From Clostridia bacterium (lineage in GTDB: Bacteria > Bacillota > Clostridia > Oscillospirales > CAG-382), in the NCBI GenBank assembly GCA_017549365.1, contig JAFYUZ010000100.1, forward strand, positions 1 through 64,000: a stretch of DNA of 64,000 nt, in the 5' to 3' direction. Position 1 is the first letter of the stretch. Each line of letters starts with the position of its first letter. The translations under genes and the position numbers were made by a program. Under the pieces are notes generated by a model. The model searched no databases and was not told the DNA's origin. It saw only the letters and a list, made by a program, of their open reading frames with translations. Shown piece after piece: positions 6,910-64,000 of this stretch.

Positions 6910-6952
6910 AGAGGTAAAGTTATAACAAACCCTTATGAAAGGAATTTTTAAA

Positions 6953-8674
6953 ATGCTGAATCACGAAATCCTTGAAAAATATAATTTGTGGTGCGAAAAA
7001 GCCGTGGACGATCCCGCTCTTGTGACAGAGCTTAAGAGCGTTGCTTCTGACGAAGACGGTGTTTTTGACCGTTTTTATACCGAGCTTAAATTCGGCACTG
7101 CGGGTCTTCGCGGAGTTATCGGCGCAGGCACCAACCGAATGAACATATATACCGTCGGCAGAGTAACAAAAGGTCTTGCCGATTGCATCAATTCCAAAAG
7201 ATCGGGCGGTAGCGTTGCCATTTCCTACGACCCCAGAATAAATTCCGAGCTTTTTGCCAAGCACGCGGCACGTGTTCTTGCGGCAAACGGCATAAAAGTA
7301 TATATCACCCCCGTGCTCGAGCCCACTCCCGTTTTGTCGTTTATGGTGCGCTATTACGGATGCGATGCAGGTATTATGATTACCGCCAGCCACAACCCTG
7401 CGCAGTACAACGGATACAAATGCTATGGCCCCGATGGTTGCCAGATGACCGACGTTTATGCCGACGAAACCACAGCTTTTGTCAACAAGGTCGACTATTT
7501 CGGTGTTGAGGTTGCAGATTTTGACGAGGGCGTGAAGTCGGGCGTTATTGAGTATACAGACGACGCCATGCTCGATAATTATTACAAAAAAGTACTTGAA
7601 AGAGCCATCGACCCCGAAATCTGCGAAAAGAGCGGACTTTCGGTGCTTTATACCCCCCTTAACGGTACAGGAAACATCCCCGTAAGAGAGATACTTGCGC
7701 GCATGAAGGTGAAGTGCGACGTGGTGCACGAGCAGGAAATGCCCGATGGCAATTTCCCCACAACACCATACCCCAACCCCGAATTTCCCAAGGCGTTTGA
7801 GATCGGAATCGAGATGGCAAAGACCACCGCGCCCGATATCATCCTTGCCACCGACCCCGATGCCGACCGCGCAGGCGTTGCCGTGCGTGACAAGGACGGA
7901 CAGTACAAGCTTCTGACCGGAAACGAGATCGGATGCATGATGACCTATTACATTCTTTCGAGAAAGAGCGAAATGGGCAAATTGCCCGCAAACAGCATGG
8001 TCGTAAAGAGCCTTGTTACCTCTGACCTTGCATCCAAGATCGCCGAAAAATATTCCTGCCGCATGGTGAACGTGCTTACGGGATTTAAATACATCGGCGA
8101 GCAGATAAAACTGCTTGAAGAAAAGGGCAACGAGGAGCTTTTCCAGCTTGGATTTGAAGAAAGCTACGGCTATCTTTCGGGCTCGTACGTTCGCGACAAG
8201 GATGCTGTTTTTGCCGCAATGATGATAAGCGAAATGGCGGCATACTGCAAGCTTTCGGGCAAAACCCTGCTTGACTTTATGCAGGAAATATACTCGGAAT
8301 TCGGAGTTTTCCGCCACAAGACCATAAGTGCTTCGTTTGACGGCGAGCAGGGTATGAACACCATGGCAGGCATTATGAAATCGTTGCGTGAAAACGCCCC
8401 CGAAAAGGTCGCGGGTCTTGAAGTTGTAAGCGTTGCCGACCATCTCGAAAGAAAGATACTCGACAAAAAGACAGGTGCCGTTTCGGCAATCGATCTTCCT
8501 CCTGCCGACGTTTTTGTTATGAATCTTGAAAACGATTGCAGCCTTATCATCCGTCCCTCGGGCACAGAACCCAAGATCAAGGCATATCTCACCGCCTGCG
8601 CCAAAACTCTTGAGCAGGCAGATGCCATTGTTGCGCAGATAGAAAAAACCGCAAACGAAATATTCGATAAGTGA
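6953..8674 (+). CDS. Phospho-sugar mutase (phosphoglucomutase/phosphomannomutase)
   Basis: A 573-residue alpha-D-phosphohexomutase that interconverts hexose 1- and 6-phosphates. Signature parts are the catalytic phosphoserine loop GIMITASHNPAQYNGYK, the metal-binding DPDADR (in ATDPDADRAGVAV), the sugar-binding GFEESYGYL and the phosphate-binding RPSGTEPKIKAYL. Length fits the PgcA-type clade of Firmicutes (about 575-600) rather than the 450-residue GlmM. I chose the second ATG because AAAGGA lies seven bases before it; the ATG 18 bp upstream overlaps this ribosome binding site. It probably feeds UDP-glucose or cell envelope synthesis. Substrate preference cannot be read from sequence. Confidence 0.92.
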   Translation: MLNHEILEKYNLWCEKAVDDPALVTELKSVASDEDGVFDRFYTELKFGTAGLRGVIGAGTNRMNIYTVGRVTKGLADCINSKRSGGSVAISYDPRINSELFAKHAARVLAANGIKVYITPVLEPTPVLSFMVRYYGCDAGIMITASHNPAQYNGYKCYGPDGCQMTDVYADETTAFVNKVDYFGVEVADFDEGVKSGVIEYTDDAMLDNYYKKVLERAIDPEICEKSGLSVLYTPLNGTGNIPVREILARMKVKCDVVHEQEMPDGNFPTTPYPNPEFPKAFEIGIEMAKTTAPDIILATDPDADRAGVAVRDKDGQYKLLTGNEIGCMMTYYILSRKSEMGKLPANSMVVKSLVTSDLASKIAEKYSCRMVNVLTGFKYIGEQIKLLEEKGNEELFQLGFEESYGYLSGSYVRDKDAVFAAMMISEMAAYCKLSGKTLLDFMQEIYSEFGVFRHKTISASFDGEQGMNTMAGIMKSLRENAPEKVAGLEVVSVADHLERKILDKKTGAVSAIDLPPADVFVMNLENDCSLIIRPSGTEPKIKAYLTACAKTLEQADAIVAQIEKTANEIFDK

Positions 8675-20233: not shown

Positions 20234-21490
20234 TCAATTTTCTCCGATTATTTTCTGGGCCGCAAGAAGTATTCCGATCTTGCCGCTCTCGTATGTAAGT
20301 CCGCCCTGAAGGTATGCGGTAAAGGGAGCTTTCATGGGTCCGTCTGCCGAAAGCTCGATGGATGCACCCGAGACGAAAGCTCCTGCCGCCATGACCACGG
20401 CGTCTGCATAGCCGGGCATATCCCACGCTTCGGGGAGCACGTGTGAATCGACGGGCGAACCGCTTTGTATGCCCTGGCAGAATTTAAGAAGTCCGTCGGC
20501 GGTGCCGAGCGTTACTGTCTGGATAATATCGTGGCGTTCTTCCTCGGCCTTGGGGTAGATGTCGTAGCCGAGATATTCAAAAAGCTTTGCGGCAAAAACG
20601 CCCGTTTTCAGAGCCTGCGCCACCGTGTGGGGAGCGTAGAAAAGTCCTTTGTACATAAATTTTGTCTGACCGAGGCTTGCGCCCGCTTCTTTTCCGATGC
20701 CGGGGGTGGTCAGACGGTACGAGCAAAGTTCGACGGCTTTTTTTGTTCCTGCAATATATCCGCCGGTTTCCGCCATGCCGCCGCCCGCGTTTTTGATGAG
20801 CGAGCCGACACAAAGGTCTGCACCGTAATAGGTGGGTTCGTGCTCGTCGCAAAATTCGCCGTAGCAGTTGTCGACAAAGACGAAAACGTCCTTGTTTATG
20901 GCGTGTGCCGCCTTTGCGGCATCGCCTATTTCTTTTGCCGAAAGGGTGCGGCGCACCGCATAGCCTTTGGAACGCTGGATATACACCATCTTGATATCGT
21001 CGGTATTGCGCAGTGCTTCTTCCATGGCGGAAATATCAATGCCGCCGTCGGAGGTCATTGCGATCTCATCATATTTCACTCCGAAATCGCGCAGTGAACC
21101 CATGCCTTCTCCGCGCAGACCTATGACCTCGTCAAGGGTATCATACGGCTTTCCCGTAACCGAAAGCATTCTGTCGCCTGTGCGCAAAATTCCGAAAAGA
21201 CCGATGCAAAGCGCTTGGGTTCCCGAAATGATGTTGTGGCGGACGATGGCATCCTCGGTTTCGAAAACGTCGGCAAACATTTCTTCCAGCACGTCGCGGC
21301 CGCGGTCGTCATAACCATAACCCGTGGTGGGGCAAAAATGTGATTCGGATACCTGATGCTCTCTGAAAGCGTCCATTACACGCATCTGATTGTCAAAGGC
21401 TGTTTTTTCTATTCCTGCAAATACTCCGCTTTCCACAAGTTCGCGTTCTGCCTTTTCGGCAAGCGCAAGGAGATTTTCGTTTATCTTCAT
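20234..21490 (-). CDS. Methionine gamma-lyase family PLP protein (YnbB-like)
   Basis: A 418-residue PLP-dependent protein of the family once called aluminium resistance protein. Diagnostic parts are FCPTTGYGYDDRGRDVLE, NIISGTQALCIGLFGILRTGD, FVDNCYGEFCDEHEPT and the PLP lysine region GSLIKNAGGGMAETGGYIAG. Its closest enzymes act on sulfur amino acids, but the true reaction of this clade is not established. It overlaps the M42-like pseudoenzyme gene by four bases and precedes dnaD by one base. Confidence 0.92.
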   Translation of the reverse strand: MKINENLLALAEKAERELVESGVFAGIEKTAFDNQMRVMDAFREHQVSESHFCPTTGYGYDDRGRDVLEEMFADVFETEDAIVRHNIISGTQALCIGLFGILRTGDRMLSVTGKPYDTLDEVIGLRGEGMGSLRDFGVKYDEIAMTSDGGIDISAMEEALRNTDDIKMVYIQRSKGYAVRRTLSAKEIGDAAKAAHAINKDVFVFVDNCYGEFCDEHEPTYYGADLCVGSLIKNAGGGMAETGGYIAGTKKAVELCSYRLTTPGIGKEAGASLGQTKFMYKGLFYAPHTVAQALKTGVFAAKLFEYLGYDIYPKAEEERHDIIQTVTLGTADGLLKFCQGIQSGSPVDSHVLPEAWDMPGYADAVVMAAGAFVSGASIELSADGPMKAPFTAYLQGGLTYESGKIGILLAAQKIIGEN

Positions 21491-22488
21491 TTTTCTTCTT
21501 CCTTTTCAGTTTCTTCAAAAATAAGGTATGCGCAAACAAGCGCCGCGGCGCCGCGCAGATCGCAAAGATTGCAGATGCCGATACCCTTTGAAAGCTTTGA
21601 GGCGCAAACCGAAACAAGTGCGGTTTTGGTGCCGTTTGCAATAAAGGGGGCGATGACCGACGGGCGGTCTTTTTCGTTGTCGGCTTTCAGCTGATAGCCG
21701 ATGCCGATATTTTTTGCGGCGTTTTCAAGCTTTCCTATAAGCTCGCGAGAGCAGTTGCCCCCTGCATCCGAAAAGGCGATGCAAGGGCCTTTGCCGACAG
21801 AAGCGGTGCCCTCTGTGCACATATCAAGGCAGATACATTCGTCGGCATCTGCAACAAACGCTGCACATTTTTCTCCCCTTGCGCCTGAAAGATGCGCAGC
21901 GGCAAAGACAAAGATCACGTCAAAGGAAAAATCGCCTGCGCACTTTGCAACTGCAAGAAGAGATGCTCCGTGAGCCTTTGTGCAGACAGCACCCAGGGCC
22001 GAAAGATCGCCCGAAAGGAAAGAAGGAGTGTCGGAAATGCTTACAAAATCTCCCTCTGCGATACCGTCATCCTCGGGGGATGCACCTGTCTGAAGATAAA
22101 AATCGCCTGCCTCGGGGGTGTCCTTGTTACAGAGCAGTATGCCCGAAATATCTTTTCCGACAATTTTTGCTTCCTTGCCGCAAAGTCTTGAAAGATCGGG
22201 TTTTCCAATGGCTTGCAGTCGTGCGTTTTTTTCGTCCTTTACGCTTGTCACCACAAAGCCTGCCTCGTCAAAGGGGCAGACCACGGCGATCTTTTTGCGG
22301 TTTTCGCCGACGCCCTTTTTTACGGCATAGACGTTTCCGATATCGTCGGCAAATATCTCGTCGCAAAAGTCCGAAAGTTCGCTTTTTACAAAATCAAGGG
22401 CAGAATTTTCGCTGCCGCACACGGTTTTTACTTCGTATATTTTTTTAAGGTCTTCTCTGAGCCCGTTTTGTGTTGTAGTCGTTTTCAT
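21487..22488 (-). CDS. M42-family pseudopeptidase (metal site lost)
   Basis: A 333-residue protein with the fold pattern of M42 aminopeptidases and clear similarity to its two upstream neighbours, but every catalytic position is replaced. The HxDE motif reads CPFDEAGF, the DDR motif region reads ALGAVCTKAHGASLL, the catalytic E-E region reads AAAHLSGARGEK, and the C-terminal histidine region reads GICNLCDLRGA. The reading frame is intact with no stop or frameshift, so it is a maintained gene, not a pseudogene. A structural or regulatory subunit of a mixed oligomer with the other two is a reasonable inference. Confidence 0.8.
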   Translation of the reverse strand: MKTTTTQNGLREDLKKIYEVKTVCGSENSALDFVKSELSDFCDEIFADDIGNVYAVKKGVGENRKKIAVVCPFDEAGFVVTSVKDEKNARLQAIGKPDLSRLCGKEAKIVGKDISGILLCNKDTPEAGDFYLQTGASPEDDGIAEGDFVSISDTPSFLSGDLSALGAVCTKAHGASLLAVAKCAGDFSFDVIFVFAAAHLSGARGEKCAAFVADADECICLDMCTEGTASVGKGPCIAFSDAGGNCSRELIGKLENAAKNIGIGYQLKADNEKDRPSVIAPFIANGTKTALVSVCASKLSKGIGICNLCDLRGAAALVCAYLIFEETEKEEEK

Positions 22489-22509
22489 AATGTAATGATC
22501 CTCCCGTTT

Positions 22510-23538
22510 TCAAAGCAGGTCTTTTATATTGTCCGAAACGGCAAAAAGAAGCTTTTCGGTGGCCGCAACGTCGCTTTTTGCCGCAACGCAAGAGGCGGAA
22601 TGAATGTATCTTGTGGGAAGAGCGATTCCCGTTATCTTCGTGCCGCCTGCCGCGCGGGAATACGATCCTGCATCTGTGCCGCCGGCGATCTTTGTTTTGG
22701 TCTGGCAGGGAATGCCCTCTTTTTCGGCAAGGGCGCGCACTTTTTTGTAAAGCGAAGGAGTATACACCGCCGAGCCGTCCATGTGGGGCACTGCCGCGCC
22801 TCCTCCCACCGTGCAGGTGCGTTCGGCACCCGAAACGCTATATATATCGCCCGCCGTGGTACATTCGAGATTTACGCAGATATCGGGTCGTACAAGACTT
22901 GCCACGGCTTTTGATCCGCGAAGACCGAGCTCCTCGCCGACACAAAAAGCAAAATACGAATCGTACTCCACCCCTCTTTCGAGAAGAGAGATAAGGAGCG
23001 CACAACCGATTCTGTCATCAAGCGCCTTTGCCTTGATCTTATCTTCTCCAAAGTCGGAAAATTCGGTGTCAAACACGGCGTAATCGGCAAAAACTCCAAG
23101 CCCTTCGGCTTCGCTTTTGGTTTTTGCTCCGATGTCGATGAAAAGACTGTCGGCACAAGGCACTTTGTCGCGCTCGTCGGACGAAACGAGATGAAAGGGT
23201 TTTACGGCAATGATGCCGGGAATACGGTTTTTGCCCACCAACACTCTGCGACCCGCATATACAAGAGGGCTCATGCCGATGGCGTCAAAATACAGTCTGC
23301 CCTCCGCGTCCACGTGGTTTATGACAAAACCGACTTCGTCGGCGTGGCAGGAATAAAGGATGGTTTTTCCAAGCGATCCTTTCGTTCCCTTTTTGAACAC
23401 CACGAGGTTTCCGCATCTGTCGTATTGTGCACTTGTGGCATAAGGTTTTATTTTTTCTGCGATAAGCGACAGCACTTCGTCCTCGTATCCCGAAACTCCG
23501 CTTGCATCGCACAGCTCTTTCAAAAGACCGTAGTTCAT
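22510..23538 (-). CDS. M42 family metallopeptidase (glutamyl aminopeptidase-like)
   Basis: A 342-residue two-metal aminopeptidase, TET-type. Metal and catalytic residues are in SCHADEVGFVI, KALDDRIGC, CVGEELGLRGSK, ICVNLECTTAGD and RYIHSASCV, so it should be active. The start at 23538 is preceded by GGGGAGGTGA; the open frame runs 33 codons further, but that stretch lies inside the upstream gene. Start and the upstream stop overlap as ATGA. Such enzymes form large dodecameric shells that trim peptides in the cytosol. Confidence 0.93.
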   Translation of the reverse strand: MNYGLLKELCDASGVSGYEDEVLSLIAEKIKPYATSAQYDRCGNLVVFKKGTKGSLGKTILYSCHADEVGFVINHVDAEGRLYFDAIGMSPLVYAGRRVLVGKNRIPGIIAVKPFHLVSSDERDKVPCADSLFIDIGAKTKSEAEGLGVFADYAVFDTEFSDFGEDKIKAKALDDRIGCALLISLLERGVEYDSYFAFCVGEELGLRGSKAVASLVRPDICVNLECTTAGDIYSVSGAERTCTVGGGAAVPHMDGSAVYTPSLYKKVRALAEKEGIPCQTKTKIAGGTDAGSYSRAAGGTKITGIALPTRYIHSASCVAAKSDVAATEKLLFAVSDNIKDLL

Positions 23539-24647
23539 GCCGTCACCTCCCCGCAAAGAGAAATTTTTCTTTTCCGGTCCATTTCCTGCGCGATTGCGGG
23601 AAATTCGTCGGCAAAAGCGCAAAGCAGGCACGCGCACGACAAAACGTCGGCAAGATTTACCGCCTCATACGCCGAATGCATATATTTTTCGGGGATCGAA
23701 AGAACGGCGCACGGGGTGCCGAGATGAGCGTTTGAAAGATGGTGTGCGTTGGTTCCCGTGTGCTTTGTTTCGACGAGAGTATGAAGAGGAATATCTGCTT
23801 TTTTTGCGCACGAAACAAGGGCGTCGGTGAGCGTGCGCGAGGTGGTGCAGGAATAGGAAACACCGCATCCGTCGCCGAGCACATAGCTTTCTTTTTCGTG
23901 GATGTCCTTGTCTCTGCCGAAATTGACGTCGAGCACAACGGCTCCGTCGCACATAAGCTTGCCCAAAACTTCGCCGCCCGTGCCGTTTACTTCTTCGGCG
24001 GACGAGAAGGAAAAGATCACGTCGCATGAGAGATCCTTGTGTGCTATTTCCATCATTTTGGCGGCAAGCAGAATGGCGACGGCACATATCCTGTCGTCCA
24101 TACTGCGCGACGAAATCATATCGTTAAGATGCCGACGCATACTGTATGCAAAAGAGCAGGGGTCGCCGACGCGTACAAGCGACGAAAGGGTTTGATCGGA
24201 AAGTCCCGTGTCTATATAAATATCCGAGATATCGGGGAGCTTGTCCATGTCCTTTTTTGCAAGGTGGGGAGGGGTGGAAATAAAAACTCCCTTTACGTCG
24301 CATGTTCCGTGGATCTCGACCTCCGATGCAAAAAGCAGACGCTTGTCCACACCGCCCACAGGACGCACTCTTAAAAAGCCGCCGCAAAGTAGCTCTGTTA
24401 CCACAAAGCCGACAGTGTCAAGATGGGCGTCAAAAAGAAGCTTCGGCGCCCCTTGCTTTCCGCACGAATGGGTAAAGATCAACCCTCCGCAGGGAAGCTT
24501 TTCGCATTTGTCAAAAAACGAAGTATATTCAAAAACCGCCTTTTCGATCTCGTGTGAAAAGATCTCTTCACTGCCGCTGACGGCAGGGATAGAGGTGAGC
24601 TTTTCGCACAGAGATGCGATTTCGGAAAAAGTCGTGTTGTCGCTCAT
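23535..24647 (-). CDS. M42 family metallopeptidase, second paralogue
   Basis: A 370-residue paralogue of the next gene. The ligands are kept: FDAHLDTVGFV, SRSMDDRICAVAIL, SFSSAEEVNGTGGEV, VVLDVNFGRDKD and KYMHSAYEAV. The HLDT variant (T in place of E) occurs in several M42 clades. It overlaps the following M42 gene by four bases and follows murD by 31 bp, so all three M42-type genes are one unit. Confidence 0.92.
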   Translation of the reverse strand: MSDNTTFSEIASLCEKLTSIPAVSGSEEIFSHEIEKAVFEYTSFFDKCEKLPCGGLIFTHSCGKQGAPKLLFDAHLDTVGFVVTELLCGGFLRVRPVGGVDKRLLFASEVEIHGTCDVKGVFISTPPHLAKKDMDKLPDISDIYIDTGLSDQTLSSLVRVGDPCSFAYSMRRHLNDMISSRSMDDRICAVAILLAAKMMEIAHKDLSCDVIFSFSSAEEVNGTGGEVLGKLMCDGAVVLDVNFGRDKDIHEKESYVLGDGCGVSYSCTTSRTLTDALVSCAKKADIPLHTLVETKHTGTNAHHLSNAHLGTPCAVLSIPEKYMHSAYEAVNLADVLSCACLLCAFADEFPAIAQEMDRKRKISLCGEVTA

Positions 24648-24678: not shown

Positions 24679-26133
24679 TCAGTTTTCAAGTTCGTGTACG
24701 ATGGATTTGAAGCGTTTGCCGCGCTCGTCAAAGTTTTTGAAAAGATCAAAGCTTGCAGAGGCGGGCGTAAGGATGACCTTGTCACCGCTTTTTGCATATT
24801 TGCGTGCGGCGACTATGGTTTCTTTGAAATCCGAAAACTTGAAAATTTCGGTGGTATCGTCAAAATTTTTCGCTTCTTTTATTGCCGCTTCTATCTTGTC
24901 TGCTGTGGCGCCGCAAAGAAAAACTGCGCGTGCCATGCGGCAAACCGGCTCGCCCACGGGGGCGTACGGAATGTTTTTGTCATATCCGCCCATGATGAGA
25001 ACCAGCTTTTTTCTGAAAACGTCGGAAAAGCTTGACACTGCGGCAATTGTTCTTGAGGGGGACGAATCTATCGAGCTGTTGTAGTAATCTGCGCCGTCAA
25101 TGGTTGCGGTGTATTCGAGTCTGTGCTCCACTCCGCCAAAGCTTGAGGCAACCGCTTTTACGTCGTCAAGCGACACAAAATCCTCTGTTGCCGCCATTGC
25201 CGCCATATAGTTTTCGGCGTTGTGTGCACCGGGAAGCTTTATGTCGGCGCGCAAAAGAAGCTTTTCGCCGTTTTTGTATATCGCCTCGTCGTCGGCAAAA
25301 TATCCGGCAGTTTTCACCTTTGCCGAGAAAAAGCAGACTTTTTTGCCGTCTTTTTCTGCTTCTTTTGCAAACTTTTCGGTTATCTCACACGCGGCGTTGG
25401 TAACCAGCTTTCCGCCGCAGGCAAGGTTTTTGAAGATGGCTTTTTTAGAGTCGGCATATTCCTCGTAAGAGGTGTGCCAGTCGAGGTGGTTGGGGCTTAC
25501 GTTTGTTACTATTGCCACATCGGGAAAATGTCCGAGGGGCACGGGCAGAGGATTGTTTTCGAAAAATCCGATCGAATGAAGCTGGAAACTCGAAAGCTCG
25601 AGCACGGCAAAGTCCGACGGACGCATGCAGGGGGTTTCGTAAAGCAGAGGTTTTCCGATGTTGCCGCCGAGATGGACGGTATATCCTGCCTTTTCAAGGA
25701 TCTTTGCCACAAGGGTTGTGGTTGTTGTTTTTCCGTCGCTTCCCGTGACGGCAATTATCCTGCACGGGCAGATAGAAAGAAACGCTTCCATTTCGCTGGT
25801 GATAACAGCCCCGCGGGAACGTGCCCCGACAATTTCGGAAACGTCGGTGCGAAGCCCCGGAGTTTTGAAGATGACCTGCTCGGAAAGATCCGAAAGATAT
25901 TCTTCTCCCGTCACAAAGCGCACGCCTTTTTTCGTGAGGTTTTCTATATCAAGTGCAGGGTTTTCGGAAAGGGCCGAAAGGTCCTTTTTGTCGCGGGCGG
26001 TCACGATCGCGCCGCTTTCGAGAAGAAATTTTATAAGGGGGATGTTGCTTACGCCGATCCCCAAAACCGCGCAACTTTTGCCGCGAAGAAAGTTTTTGTA
26101 TTGTTCAAGCTTTTCGTTTCTGTAGTTTTCCAT
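24679..26133 (-). CDS. murD: UDP-N-acetylmuramoylalanine--D-glutamate ligase
   Basis: A 484-residue Mur ligase adding D-glutamate to UDP-MurNAc-L-alanine in peptidoglycan synthesis. The N-terminal Rossmann part has VLGIGVSNIPLIKFLLESGA, the ATP loop is VTGSDGKTTTTTLVAKIL, then GGNIGKPLL, SSFQLHSIGFF, TNVSPNHLDWH and the C-terminal GGYDKNIPY. The second residue block LSSFQL marks MurD rather than MurC/E/F. It stands apart from the usual mra/dcw cluster; its neighbours are a methyltransferase and M42 peptidases. Confidence 0.96.
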   Translation of the reverse strand: MENYRNEKLEQYKNFLRGKSCAVLGIGVSNIPLIKFLLESGAIVTARDKKDLSALSENPALDIENLTKKGVRFVTGEEYLSDLSEQVIFKTPGLRTDVSEIVGARSRGAVITSEMEAFLSICPCRIIAVTGSDGKTTTTTLVAKILEKAGYTVHLGGNIGKPLLYETPCMRPSDFAVLELSSFQLHSIGFFENNPLPVPLGHFPDVAIVTNVSPNHLDWHTSYEEYADSKKAIFKNLACGGKLVTNAACEITEKFAKEAEKDGKKVCFFSAKVKTAGYFADDEAIYKNGEKLLLRADIKLPGAHNAENYMAAMAATEDFVSLDDVKAVASSFGGVEHRLEYTATIDGADYYNSSIDSSPSRTIAAVSSFSDVFRKKLVLIMGGYDKNIPYAPVGEPVCRMARAVFLCGATADKIEAAIKEAKNFDDTTEIFKFSDFKETIVAARKYAKSGDKVILTPASASFDLFKNFDERGKRFKSIVHELEN

Positions 26134-26958: not shown

Positions 26959-27001
26959 TCATTATATATGTCATAATGTATAATTTTACGGGGTGAATAA
27001 A

Positions 27002-27307
27002 ATGAAAAATTGGAAAAAATGTCTTGCACTTGTTTTTGCTGTGATTCTTTGCAGCCTTTCGGCGATCACTGTTTTTGCCGAGATAGACAATTTCATCAAC
27101 GCTGACTGGGACAAAGACTACGAATCGGGGGATGTTAACGGCGACGGAAACGTAAATTCCGACGACATTCTTCTCATCAGAAAATACATTGCAGGTCTTG
27201 TGGGCGATGCCGACATCGAATATGATGCCGCAGACGTCAACCTTGATTCGAGCGTAAATTCCGACGATCTTCTTATCATCAGAAAGATGGTTGCAGGTCT
27301 TGTATAA
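27002..27307 (+). CDS. Secreted stand-alone type I dockerin protein
   Basis: A 101-residue protein: signal peptide (MKNWKKCLALVFAVILCSLS through AITVFA) and then almost only a type I dockerin. Its two calcium-binding repeats read DVNGDGNVNSDDILLIRKYIAGL and DVNLDSSVNSDDLLIIRKMVAGL. Dockerins bind cohesins on cellulosome scaffolds or cell-surface anchors; they are normally fused to a catalytic module, which is absent here. The start is the ATG ten bases after the GGGGTGA site; the GTG inside that site is not used. Neighbour downstream is a cytosolic metallophosphoesterase gene with no promoter of its own. Confidence 0.9.
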   Translation: MKNWKKCLALVFAVILCSLSAITVFAEIDNFINADWDKDYESGDVNGDGNVNSDDILLIRKYIAGLVGDADIEYDAADVNLDSSVNSDDLLIIRKMVAGLV

Positions 27308-27340: not shown

Positions 27341-27373
27341 TGCGGCATGGCAGATAGCCGTGCCGCATTTTTT
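27341..27373 (+). terminator. Intrinsic terminator after the dockerin gene
   Basis: TGCGGCATGGC pairs with GCCGTGCCGCA (one mismatch) around an AGATA-type loop, then a T-run. Only 28 bases separate it from the next start codon, so the next gene depends on read-through or on processing. Confidence 0.85.
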
Positions 27374-27401
27374 ATATATCAATCGCAAAAAGGAGAAAAA
27401 C

Positions 27402-28832
27402 ATGGACGAAATAAAGCTTATACTCCCACAGATAAAAGCGCCCACAGGCGAAGCTTTTGAAATAACTCCCACAGACACGCCCGGCGTTTTCAAAACCTAC
27501 AGCGGCTCGGATCTCAATTTCGGATACGGCAACACCACGTATATAGCGTACGTTTATTCCAACGACGGAAGAAGTATGTTCTATTCCGATTCCCGCACGA
27601 ATTTCACCCTCACCATTCCCGAACCCGGTGAATACAAGGTGCACATCTGTGCCGAAAAGGATTACGTTGCCCACAACGGCAAATACATCCTTGGTTTTTC
27701 GGGTATAAAACCGATGAAAACAGATGCTGTTCCCGAATGGAAAGACGATATGGCGGGCACGATAAGCGCCGCATGGAGACCGACAAAGGAAACCAAGGTG
27801 ATCTTCCCCGAAAGCATGAGAAAGCTTTCGGCGAAAGAAAAAGCAAAGCTTGAAACCCCTGTGGAATACCAGTTTGGCTCGGCAGACTCCACAGAAGAGG
27901 ATTACAAAAAAGGTCTTGTCAGCTACAAGACAGCCGCAGGAACAAGAGTGCGCGAGATACACATCGACGCCGTTACTCCCGGCAAAAAGACTGTGGTTGC
28001 GGGCCTTTGCGATATGCACATAAACTATGTAAACGAAGAAGACGAAAACGATGCCGAAATACAGTATACCAACAAAACACGCTATTGGGGATATGGCAAC
28101 TCGCTGACCCAGCGTGCGCTTTTCGGTATGGCTTTTGCGGATATTTACGACCAGTGCATTATTGCGGGCGATATTCTCGACTATATGTCGATGGGCGCCA
28201 CACGCATGGTTATTGAAGGTATCATAAAGCCTTATCCCGACGTGCTTATGACCCCCGGCGGACACGATATCACAAAGAATATGGAAACAGGATTTAGGGA
28301 CGTGCTTCCCGTTGAAGAAAGACGTGCCCATCTGCAAAGCTTCTGGCCCCACGACCTTTTCTACGCTTCAAAGGTTGTAAACGACAGTGTTCTTTGCGTT
28401 GCCATCGACAACGGCGCAGGGACATATCTCGATTGCCAGGTAGAAAAGCTTAAGGCAGACGTTGAACTTGCCAGAAAGAACGGCTACACCCTTCTCATGT
28501 TCCAGCACGAGCCGATCGCCACCGACATTGAAAAATACGAAAATACCTCCTGCCTTGATACCAACTGTGCCGACCCTGTCAAGCAGAACTTCAATTTCCG
28601 CGGTCCCAACAACATAGGCGGCATCGACCGCGAGGTTTCGGAGGCGACAAGGAAGATCTTTGAGATCATAAAGTCAAGCCCCGACGTTATCAAGGGCGTT
28701 TTCTCGGGACATCGCCACTACAATTTCTATTACGAGATCACCGCAGATGACGGCACTCTTATTCCCCAGTACGTTATGCGCGCCAGCGCCTATGACGAAT
28801 ACGGCAATATCGCAAAGATCGTTGTTGAATAA
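27402..28832 (+). CDS. Cytosolic metallophosphoesterase with N-terminal beta domain
   Basis: A 476-residue protein without a signal peptide. The first 150 residues are beta-rich (for example FTLTIPEPGEYKVHICAEKD), then comes a calcineurin-like domain from about residue 205: LCDMHINY, IAGDILDYMSMG, TPGGHDI, FQHEPIAT and FSGHRHYNF. The usual GNHD motif is GGHD here, so the asparagine metal ligand is missing. It is a paralogue of the C-terminal part of the S-layer protein at the right window edge: both contain the KPY/LFRVDTD-like block, the inserted stretch before the last motif and the end block IPQYxxxxxxYxxxGxxxKIxV. Substrate unknown. RBS AAGGAG precedes the ATG. Confidence 0.85.
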   Translation: MDEIKLILPQIKAPTGEAFEITPTDTPGVFKTYSGSDLNFGYGNTTYIAYVYSNDGRSMFYSDSRTNFTLTIPEPGEYKVHICAEKDYVAHNGKYILGFSGIKPMKTDAVPEWKDDMAGTISAAWRPTKETKVIFPESMRKLSAKEKAKLETPVEYQFGSADSTEEDYKKGLVSYKTAAGTRVREIHIDAVTPGKKTVVAGLCDMHINYVNEEDENDAEIQYTNKTRYWGYGNSLTQRALFGMAFADIYDQCIIAGDILDYMSMGATRMVIEGIIKPYPDVLMTPGGHDITKNMETGFRDVLPVEERRAHLQSFWPHDLFYASKVVNDSVLCVAIDNGAGTYLDCQVEKLKADVELARKNGYTLLMFQHEPIATDIEKYENTSCLDTNCADPVKQNFNFRGPNNIGGIDREVSEATRKIFEIIKSSPDVIKGVFSGHRHYNFYYEITADDGTLIPQYVMRASAYDEYGNIAKIVVE

Positions 28833-61363: not shown

Positions 61364-64000
61364 TTACTTAACGGTGATCTTGATAACGTGTCCGACGTTG
61401 CCGTAAACGGTGGAGGTCAGAGTGTACTGGGGGATAACTGTGTCGACGATGTTTCCGTTTTCGTCCTTATAGGTTGCAAGGACTTCGGTGTAATAGTCTC
61501 CGTGTTCGTGTCCGTTGAAAACACCCTTGACGATATCGCCGTTAGAAACGAGGAGATCGCAGAAATCCTTTGTGGGGCCGGAGTTGTTTCCAAGCTTGGT
61601 GTAATAATTTATTTTATCACCATCGCCTGTGATTGTCGGCACTTCTGTGTCTTCAGGGTTACGGGTAGAGATCGGAATGTGGAAGAATACGAGGATTACA
61701 TAGTCGTTTTCTCTGGCCTTTTCGATGTCTGCTCTGAGCTTTTCGACCTGCTCTTCCACAAACTTTGATGTGCCGTTGTCAACGACAACACACATAACCT
61801 TGTCCTTGATAACGCGCGATTCGTATATTGCATCGTGGATCCAGAATTCTTCGATAAGCTTGAATCTGGATTCGTAGGAGGTGGGGTCAGCAACTGTACC
61901 CTGCATTACACGGGTGGTATCGTGGTTGCCAAGGCACGCCATGATATCTGTGTCAACGCGGAAGAGGTTTTCGATGGTAAGCTCTTTACAACCGTGCGAG
62001 AGATAGTCGAGAACGTCGCCTGTTACAATGGTGACATCAGAGTATCTTGCATATTCCATAGCTCTTGCAACGGGAGTTACGGAAACACCGTTTGCAAGCC
62101 AGGTTCTGCCGATCTTTGTGCTCATGACCGAGGGGTTCTTTTCTTCTTCGTCAAGAGCGTTTACAAGGTTAAAGTGGGTGTCGGAGGTCTGAACGATCTC
62201 AACAGGGTCTGTGTCGGGCTTTTTGCTTTCGATCACAACTTCACGAACATACGGACCGATCGAGTGTGAATATATGTAGGTCTTAAGATCGTCGGGCGAG
62301 CCGTTGATGACGCTGGTATTCTTGTTTCTTGCCTCGGTTTTCAGCTCGTCGATGGCAGCCTTGAGAGCTGTCTTCTGCTCGGCGGTGATATCCTTTGCCA
62401 CTGTTGCTTCTGTGCCCATCTTGTAGATGTGGGTGGCAATTGCTTTTGCAAGAGCGGTGGGCTTCTTTTCGTTCATAAGAAGTTTTACGTATTCGGGAAT
62501 AGCTGTGCCGTCTGCGGCGGCTCCGAGATCTGCGCTTCTTGTCCAATCTGTGCCGTGAGCACCTGCTGCCGCAACGATCTGCGAGCTTGCCCAGTGGCCC
62601 GAGATATCAGAGAAAACTGCGCCCGCAGTGCCCGAGGGCTTTCTGCCGAGCATTCTGTTTACAACAGTTACAACCTCGGCTCTTGTGATGTTTCCGTCGG
62701 GAGCAAAGGTGCCATCGGAATAACCGTTTACATATCCGTTTACAACTGCGTGGTAGATGGCGTTGCTGTATTTGTTTGTGTAATCAACGTCGGAAAATTC
62801 CTTGTATTTCTTGGCGTTTTCGATGTTTGCCGAAACGTTGTACACAAGCTTTGAAAATTCTGCGTAGGTGATGCCGTCTTCGTCAAGAAGTCTTTCGATA
62901 TTGTAGATCAGCTGAACGAATTCCGCACGGGTGATGGCTTTGGAGGGTTCGATGTTTTCGCCGTCTCCGATCTTGTTGAGAAGACCTGCTTTGTCAAAGA
63001 AACCAATGTACTTTGCATACCATGCGTTTGCATCAACGTCGGCAAAGTTGTTTTCAAAGTTGCCGCTCTTAACGGTTTTTTCGTCAGCGATTATTCTTGT
63101 CAGAAGTGTGATAGCTTCTGCTCTTGTCATGTTGTTCTGGGGAAGGAAAGTGCCGTCCTCGTAACCTGCAACATAGTTTGCGTTGTCGTTGATGCCGAGG
63201 TTGAGGGAAGAAACGACCTTGCCCGAATATTTTCCTTCGGGAAGAGCGAAGATGCCGTTTACGGGGAGAAGATCTCCGCTTTCCGACGAAAGCTTTTCTG
63301 CTTCACAGTCGAAATCGTCATAAGCCTTGATGCCCGAAAGCTTGCCGCCATCGAAAACGGGAATAATAGAGCCGCCCTTGATCGAAAGAATGGAGTTGTA
63401 TTTTGCGTTTTCCGAGATCTCAAGGTCGGATATGGTGTTGCTGACATAGATGACAGAGGCGTCTGTTTTGCCGTTGCCCGAATCGTCGATCTTGTTGACA
63501 GCGGCGCCCGAAACGGTGATGGTGGCAGAGCCTGTAAAGCTTGCATTTTCGCCGTAAGCACCTGTTTTGATGCTGCCGATGTTGCCGCCTGTGATATCAA
63601 CGGTGATGTTGCCGTTCATCGCGCCGTTTTCGGCACCGATGATAAGTTCTGCCACGTCGCCGCCTGCGATGGTGACTTTCATGTCACCGTCGTTTTTGCC
63701 GTCAAGCGAACCAACCACGAGCTTTTCGTAAGAACCGCCTGTGATGACCATTTCGGAATTTGCGGAAACGTTGCCGGAAGAAAGAGCAACAGTTGCAAAA
63801 GTGCCCGAGGTGAGGATGTATTTATAATCCTCTGTGGCGTCTCCGCTGAAAAGATTCATAAGAGGTGAATATTTTTTTTCGCCCGAGGGATAGCTTACAG
63901 TGTGGAAAGTGTCGATCTCGCCTTCGGTGGTGAAATTGTGACCGTTCATAAGAAATCCCGAGCCTTCTGCGGAGAATTTAAACGAAACATTCGAGAAGGT
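61364..64000 (-). CDS. S-layer-anchored metallophosphoesterase, N-terminus outside window
   Basis: The frame stays open from 61366 to the right window edge, so the ATG at 63949 is internal. At least 878 codons are present. The N-terminal part (about 63950-63250) is a glycine/serine-rich array of short beta repeats such as VTIAGGDVAELIIGAENG and VDITGGNIGSIKTGAYGEN, likely a beta-helix. Three SLH modules follow (about 63190-62590; NYVAGYEDGTFLPQNNMTRAEA, NIEPSKAITRAEFVQLIYN, NGYSDGTFAPDGNITRAEVV). The C-terminal part is a calcineurin-like domain with SDTHFN, VTGDVLDY, LGNHDTTR, FFHIPIS and FNGHEHGD, all ligands intact. It is a surface paralogue of the protein at 27402. Confidence 0.9.
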   Translation of the reverse strand, partial: TFSNVSFKFSAEGSGFLMNGHNFTTEGEIDTFHTVSYPSGEKKYSPLMNLFSGDATEDYKYILTSGTFATVALSSGNVSANSEMVITGGSYEKLVVGSLDGKNDGDMKVTIAGGDVAELIIGAENGAMNGNITVDITGGNIGSIKTGAYGENASFTGSATITVSGAAVNKIDDSGNGKTDASVIYVSNTISDLEISENAKYNSILSIKGGSIIPVFDGGKLSGIKAYDDFDCEAEKLSSESGDLLPVNGIFALPEGKYSGKVVSSLNLGINDNANYVAGYEDGTFLPQNNMTRAEAITLLTRIIADEKTVKSGNFENNFADVDANAWYAKYIGFFDKAGLLNKIGDGENIEPSKAITRAEFVQLIYNIERLLDEDGITYAEFSKLVYNVSANIENAKKYKEFSDVDYTNKYSNAIYHAVVNGYVNGYSDGTFAPDGNITRAEVVTVVNRMLGRKPSGTAGAVFSDISGHWASSQIVAAAGAHGTDWTRSADLGAAADGTAIPEYVKLLMNEKKPTALAKAIATHIYKMGTEATVAKDITAEQKTALKAAIDELKTEARNKNTSVINGSPDDLKTYIYSHSIGPYVREVVIESKKPDTDPVEIVQTSDTHFNLVNALDEEEKNPSVMSTKIGRTWLANGVSVTPVARAMEYARYSDVTIVTGDVLDYLSHGCKELTIENLFRVDTDIMACLGNHDTTRVMQGTVADPTSYESRFKLIEEFWIHDAIYESRVIKDKVMCVVVDNGTSKFVEEQVEKLRADIEKARENDYVILVFFHIPISTRNPEDTEVPTITGDGDKINYYTKLGNNSGPTKDFCDLLVSNGDIVKGVFNGHEHGDYYTEVLATYKDENGNIVDTVIPQYTLTSTVYGNVGHVIKITVK

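Follow-up and report, generated by a model that had tools for sequence, protein, structure and literature searches.

On the reverse strand of the 64,000-nt window, by which we mean the whole stretch of DNA analysed here, three consecutive genes encode proteins of the M42 aminopeptidase fold, one from each of three classes termed A, B and C. M42-A (23535-24647, 370 aa) and M42-B (22510-23538, 342 aa) are complete aminopeptidase subunits, and M42-C (21487-22488, 333 aa) is a catalytically dead subunit. The stop codon of M42-A and the start codon of M42-B share a 4-nt ATGA overlap (23535-23538, reverse strand) that points to translational coupling, and 21 nt separate M42-B from M42-C. All three exceed the Pfam M42 (PF05343) cut-off of 23.2 bits, with 196, 235 and 79.2 bits for A, B and C, respectively, and M42-C is a full-length match (profile positions 1-290 of 292). 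The coordinates, frames and coupling of this trio were all confirmed as given in the preliminary description. The 2.52-Mb draft genome (80.5% complete) contains no other full M42 gene; a fourth M42 match is weak and partial.

Downstream, M42-C overlaps by 4 nt (ATGA) a gene of the Met_gamma_lyase family (PF06838; 20234-21490, reverse strand), which is a frequent downstream neighbour of the M42 trio in the window's family. A murD-like Mur ligase gene (24679-26133, reverse strand) lies 31 nt upstream of M42-A and is likewise a frequent upstream neighbour of the trio.

Other parts of the window carry features of separate interest. A forward-strand gene (26993-27307) encodes a free-standing dockerin: the product is 104 aa long, seems to carry a signal peptide, and has one type I dockerin (PF00404, E 1.2e-12) as its sole domain. 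At 61364-63949 (reverse strand), an 861-aa protein has a calcineurin-like phosphoesterase domain preceded by three S-layer homology domains. Two frames have no Pfam match at E 0.001: one of 490 aa (27360-28832, forward strand), which looks metallophosphoesterase-like by eye, and one of 507 aa (6920-8443, reverse strand), which overlaps a long frame on the forward strand (6935-8674), so that either strand is possibly coding.

Active site and predicted fold of M42-C

In PhTET2, whose residue numbering is used here for the active site, the metal ligands are H68, D182, E213, D235 and H323, and E212 is the catalytic base (PMC8993905). M42-A and M42-B retain all metal and catalytic residues, in agreement with the two intact members first described, and M42-C does not. 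In M42-B the D235 position is occupied by Glu, as it is in 96% of live class B members and in TM1049. Damage to M42-B was rejected as an explanation of this substitution, given that nearly all class B members and TM1049 share it; it may instead mark a different metal preference of the class.

In M42-C (reverse strand throughout), P72 (22273-22275) replaces the metal ligand H68, C169 (21982-21984) the bridging ligand D182, H199-L200 (21889-21894) the base E212 together with the M1 ligand E213, and S300 (21589-21591) the metal ligand H323. The whole protein of 333 residues contains just two histidines. The preliminary description had every catalytic residue replaced, which holds for five of the six metal and base residues but not for D235, whose equivalent is D222, nor for the aspartate of the HxD motif, D74 (22267-22269; D70 in PhTET2, D62 in TmPep1050), which is kept in 12/12 dead C. 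With one metal ligand of five and no catalytic base, M42-C is very unlikely, judging from its sequence, to hydrolyse peptides by the M42 mechanism. Family-based annotation would name it an M42 peptidase, which would be wrong with respect to activity.

A second difference concerns the interior of the particle. In PhTET2, residues 120-138 form a mobile loop that contains a Pro-Pro-His motif, occupies much of the chamber and stabilises the substrate (PMC8993905). A loop of this length with its histidine is mostly kept in classes A and B, as PPH at residues 126-128 of M42-A and as PFH in M42-B. In class C the segment is shorter and has no loop histidine in any member, whether live or dead (residues 116-136 of M42-C; 22081-22143, reverse strand), and TmPep1050 likewise lacks this histidine. 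Since live and dead class C are alike in this respect, loss of the loop preceded loss of catalysis in class C.

An AlphaFold2 model of M42-C built from 48 aligned class C sequences (pLDDT 91.1, pTM 0.91) superposes on PhTET2 (1y0r) over 312 residues at 2.1 Å (VIA Z 38.9, Foldseek E 1.5e-29). M42-C is therefore predicted, with high confidence, to have a complete M42 fold with both the catalytic and the PDZ-like domain. Residues D48, D74, G77, G95, G116, G146-D147, F195, R204-G205 and D216 are invariant in the 12 dead C proteins. Among these, R204 (21877-21879, reverse strand), present in 100% of live and dead class C, aligns with R212 of PfTET3, which forms a hydrogen bond to the adjacent subunit (PMC4745047). 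Since the position is Arg in only 29% of A and 47% of B, and Val in TmPep1050, assembly does not depend on it, which limits the argument from contact residues. Around D182 and H323, pairwise identity is 24-25% among dead C compared to 52-69% among live C. These observations indicate that dead C retains its fold together with one putative contact residue, and that the active-site segments drift.

Conservation of M42-C and recurrent inactivation in class B

Complete cassettes were read from 36 genomes of the window's family and from the window itself, most of the genomes compared being metagenome assemblies. M42-C was dead in 12 cassettes, from genera g1, g5, g11 and g12, and live in 25; A and B were intact beside every dead C, and no stop or frameshift was present in C in 12/12 dead-C cassettes of these four genera. 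Independent genomes thus agree, and a lineage-specific oddity or an assembly error was rejected on that ground. In a tree built from A and B alone, the 12 dead-C genomes form one clade (support 100/100), and the genera sister to this group carry live C, which argues for a single old inactivation retained over a radiation of four genera.

Simple pairwise estimates of dN/dS by three methods between the window and genome G049 were 0.13-0.16 for C, 0.12-0.14 for A and 0.06-0.08 for B, and three dead-C pairs within genus g11 gave 0.10-0.24. Chance does not explain the open frame of M42-C, as other genomes also carry the gene intact and purifying selection acts on it. M42-C is a retained inactive homologue, a pseudoenzyme, kept by selection across species of related gut bacteria. 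Selection had been guessed from the intact frame and the coupling, with relatives named as the place to look for a conserved pseudoenzyme, and both expectations were borne out by these dN/dS values and by the dead C of 12 cassettes from four genera. A search of open-licence papers found no described case of an M42 pseudoenzyme. Genomes of family f1 mostly have either no M42 gene or at least the trio: G038 and G058-G060 carry zero M42, and the exceptions are G037 (one weak match) and G039 (one match, on a broken contig).

Sixty-eight distinct complete trios were compared across a wider set of genomes. In 44 of them all members are live, 13 have a dead C, 11 have a dead B, none has a dead A and none has two dead members, although dead-B and dead-C trios fall in few clades and the lack of double losses is therefore not statistical proof. 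In a dead-B clade of another family (L043, L049, L051, L057, L059, L070, L077, L082, L103, L195), the bridging D182 and the base E212 are lost, DDR having become GGR and E212 either R or G. This clade retains H68, the M1 ligand E213, D235 and the loop histidine, so that its pattern of inactivation differs from that of M42-C in the window. For one dead B of this clade, a well-folded protein was predicted (pLDDT 90.3). Class B is separately dead in two further Oscillospiraceae (L054, L068), and further candidates are L204 (class B), L198 (class C) and L163 and L164 (C-like, with partial losses).

By parsimony, class B requires three changes, two of which are forced by well-supported branches, and class C at least one inactivation, with two on the tree. 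L198, from another family, joins the dead C of the window in one tree, a placement that carries a warning of long-branch joining, and is tentatively regarded as a separate inactivation of C. The family of G705 yielded dead-B relatives; a search with strict cut-offs of sampled genomes from the window's order and class, which had no positive control there, yielded none. Among the trios compared, inactivation recurs independently in B and never in A.

Many Oscillospiraceae carry A and B only, and 6/8 of these duo genomes have just two M42 genes. A third M42 gene hidden between B and the lyase gene in the duos was considered and rejected for the two gaps read, in which the frame is not M42. By eye, the M42-to-Met_gamma_lyase gap contains an acetyltransferase-like frame in two loci (L052:5190-6000, L105:5176-6000) and a serine-hydrolase-like frame in another (L040:4905-5975).

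M42-C as a putative subunit of a mixed shell

M42 aminopeptidases usually form a hollow, peptide-shredding shell, and TET aminopeptidases have been regarded as homo-oligomers, only a few heteromers having been described. TET dimers associate via their PDZ-like domains into dodecamers with three active sites per apex, and the particle dissociates into smaller forms when its active-site metal M1 is removed (PMC4220976, PMC4745047). On the basis of this dissociation, the mixing of PhTET2 with PhTET3 and the crosslinks between YtoP and YsdC, we propose that M42-C most likely joins A and B in a mixed TET-type shell, in which it is a subunit without catalytic function.

Likely, M42-C would pair through its PDZ-like domain and enter the dodecamer with A and/or B. 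Unable to bind the stabilising metals of homododecamers, it would need metal-bearing partners to assemble. Having neither metals nor the bulky substrate loop, M42-C would free space in the chamber, and it would set the number and kind of live sites at each apex, spacing or tuning these. Class A would be the indispensable catalyst, and B and C the classes open to demotion. The preliminary description had suggested that such a subunit shapes access or activity, which may have a concrete basis in the absence of the substrate-holding chamber loop from class C.

Counted in support of the mixed shell are the coupling of the genes, the fixed A-B-C order, the near all-or-none presence of the trio and the inactivation of B elsewhere, never of A, together with the conservation, purifying selection and predicted fold of dead C and its invariant D74 and R204-G205, which persist despite the loss of metal ligands. 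However, the Oscillospiraceae duos imply that C is not needed for A and B to work in those genomes, joint presence of adjacent genes could follow from operon inheritance alone, and homo-oligomers are the working form of both CelM and TmPep1050, the latter a neighbour of class C in the tree (PMC3511314).

An alternative that we consider unlikely is that M42-C has left the shell to exist as a dimer on its own, perhaps binding peptides or serving as an adaptor, or acting with the Met_gamma_lyase protein. Metal loss breaks M42 dodecamers into smaller forms (PMC4745047), so M42-C may not join a shell at all; its gene overlaps the lyase gene by 4 nt, and H199, K171 and D74, invariant in 5/5 of genus g1, could be a new ligand site. 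Yet in g11 and g12 the dead C is kept and no Met_gamma_lyase gene was found in the DNA retrieved, the dead-C clade as a whole shares no new polar cluster, and the inter-subunit Arg is retained. Much harder to sustain is a rebuilt site with a different enzymatic activity: His at the base E212 position and the change of the neighbouring Arg to Lys, each in 5/5 of genus g1, would suit such a site, but the replacements differ in g5, g11 and g12, and the segments around D182 and H323 noted above for their low identity are the least conserved in dead C. That M42-C is a functionless, decaying copy open by chance is hardly credible, as the loss of catalytic residues and a faster evolution than that of live C are set against dN/dS of 0.10-0.24 in four pairs, intact frames in 12/12 cassettes over four genera and a complete predicted fold.

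The mixed shell is thus the reading that we prefer. A coupled, conserved trio in which catalysis was lost repeatedly in two of three classes argues that bacterial TET shells use specialised subunits. Natural non-catalytic subunits would also offer a means of separating the contributions of chamber, loop and metals.

Age of the trio and comparison with known systems

Classes A, B and C form three clades in trees, and the gene order A-B-C is fixed. From T. maritima, 1vho, which we take to be TM1048, groups with class A (100/98), and TM1049 (2fvg) groups with class B (100/99). TM1050 (4p6y) branches together with archaeal TET2 and TET3 beside class C (99/92), and C is not separated from the archaeal TETs. 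TM1048, TM1049 and TM1050 have been listed together as annotated endoglucanases (PMC4517919). With Thermotoga members in A, in B and beside C, the M42 trio may predate Bacillota, at least by this phylogeny; spread of the trio by transfer between phyla is possible as well. More speculatively, a three-part A/B/C shell could itself be older than the split of Thermotogota and Bacillota, with A staying the catalyst and B or C repeatedly made structural, as in ClpR. If this were true, TmPep1050 would be one part of a larger machine, studied alone.

The Thermotoga genes resemble the window trio in having consecutive tags and in representing class A, class B and a lineage beside class C; unlike the window trio, all three proteins retain their catalytic residues, and they have been studied singly (PMC3511314). 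Each has already been crystallised on its own, which makes the question of a heteromer testable at once.

Hetero-oligomers of M42 enzymes are indeed known in archaea, as the preliminary description stated. In the PhTET2-PhTET3 heterododecamer of P. horikoshii, M42 paralogues occupy defined positions in one mixed shell (PMC4220976), although there are two kinds of subunit, both live, and the genes form no coupled trio with a dead member. In B. subtilis, the bacterial M42 paralogues YtoP and YsdC were crosslinked in cells as a heteromer (PDB 9a5r; PMC10090944), but these are two paralogues with no reported loss of catalytic residues. A loop mutant of PhTET2 resembles class C in lacking the chamber loop that bears the PPH histidine and differs from dead C in being engineered and in keeping its metals and activity, with weaker substrate binding (PMC8993905). 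In logic, the closest analogy is the chloroplast Clp core with its non-catalytic ClpR, a compartment protease in which catalytic and non-catalytic paralogous subunits (CLPP and CLPR) are combined (PMC6508832), although it consists of serine protease rings working with chaperones and is unrelated to M42 in fold and chemistry.
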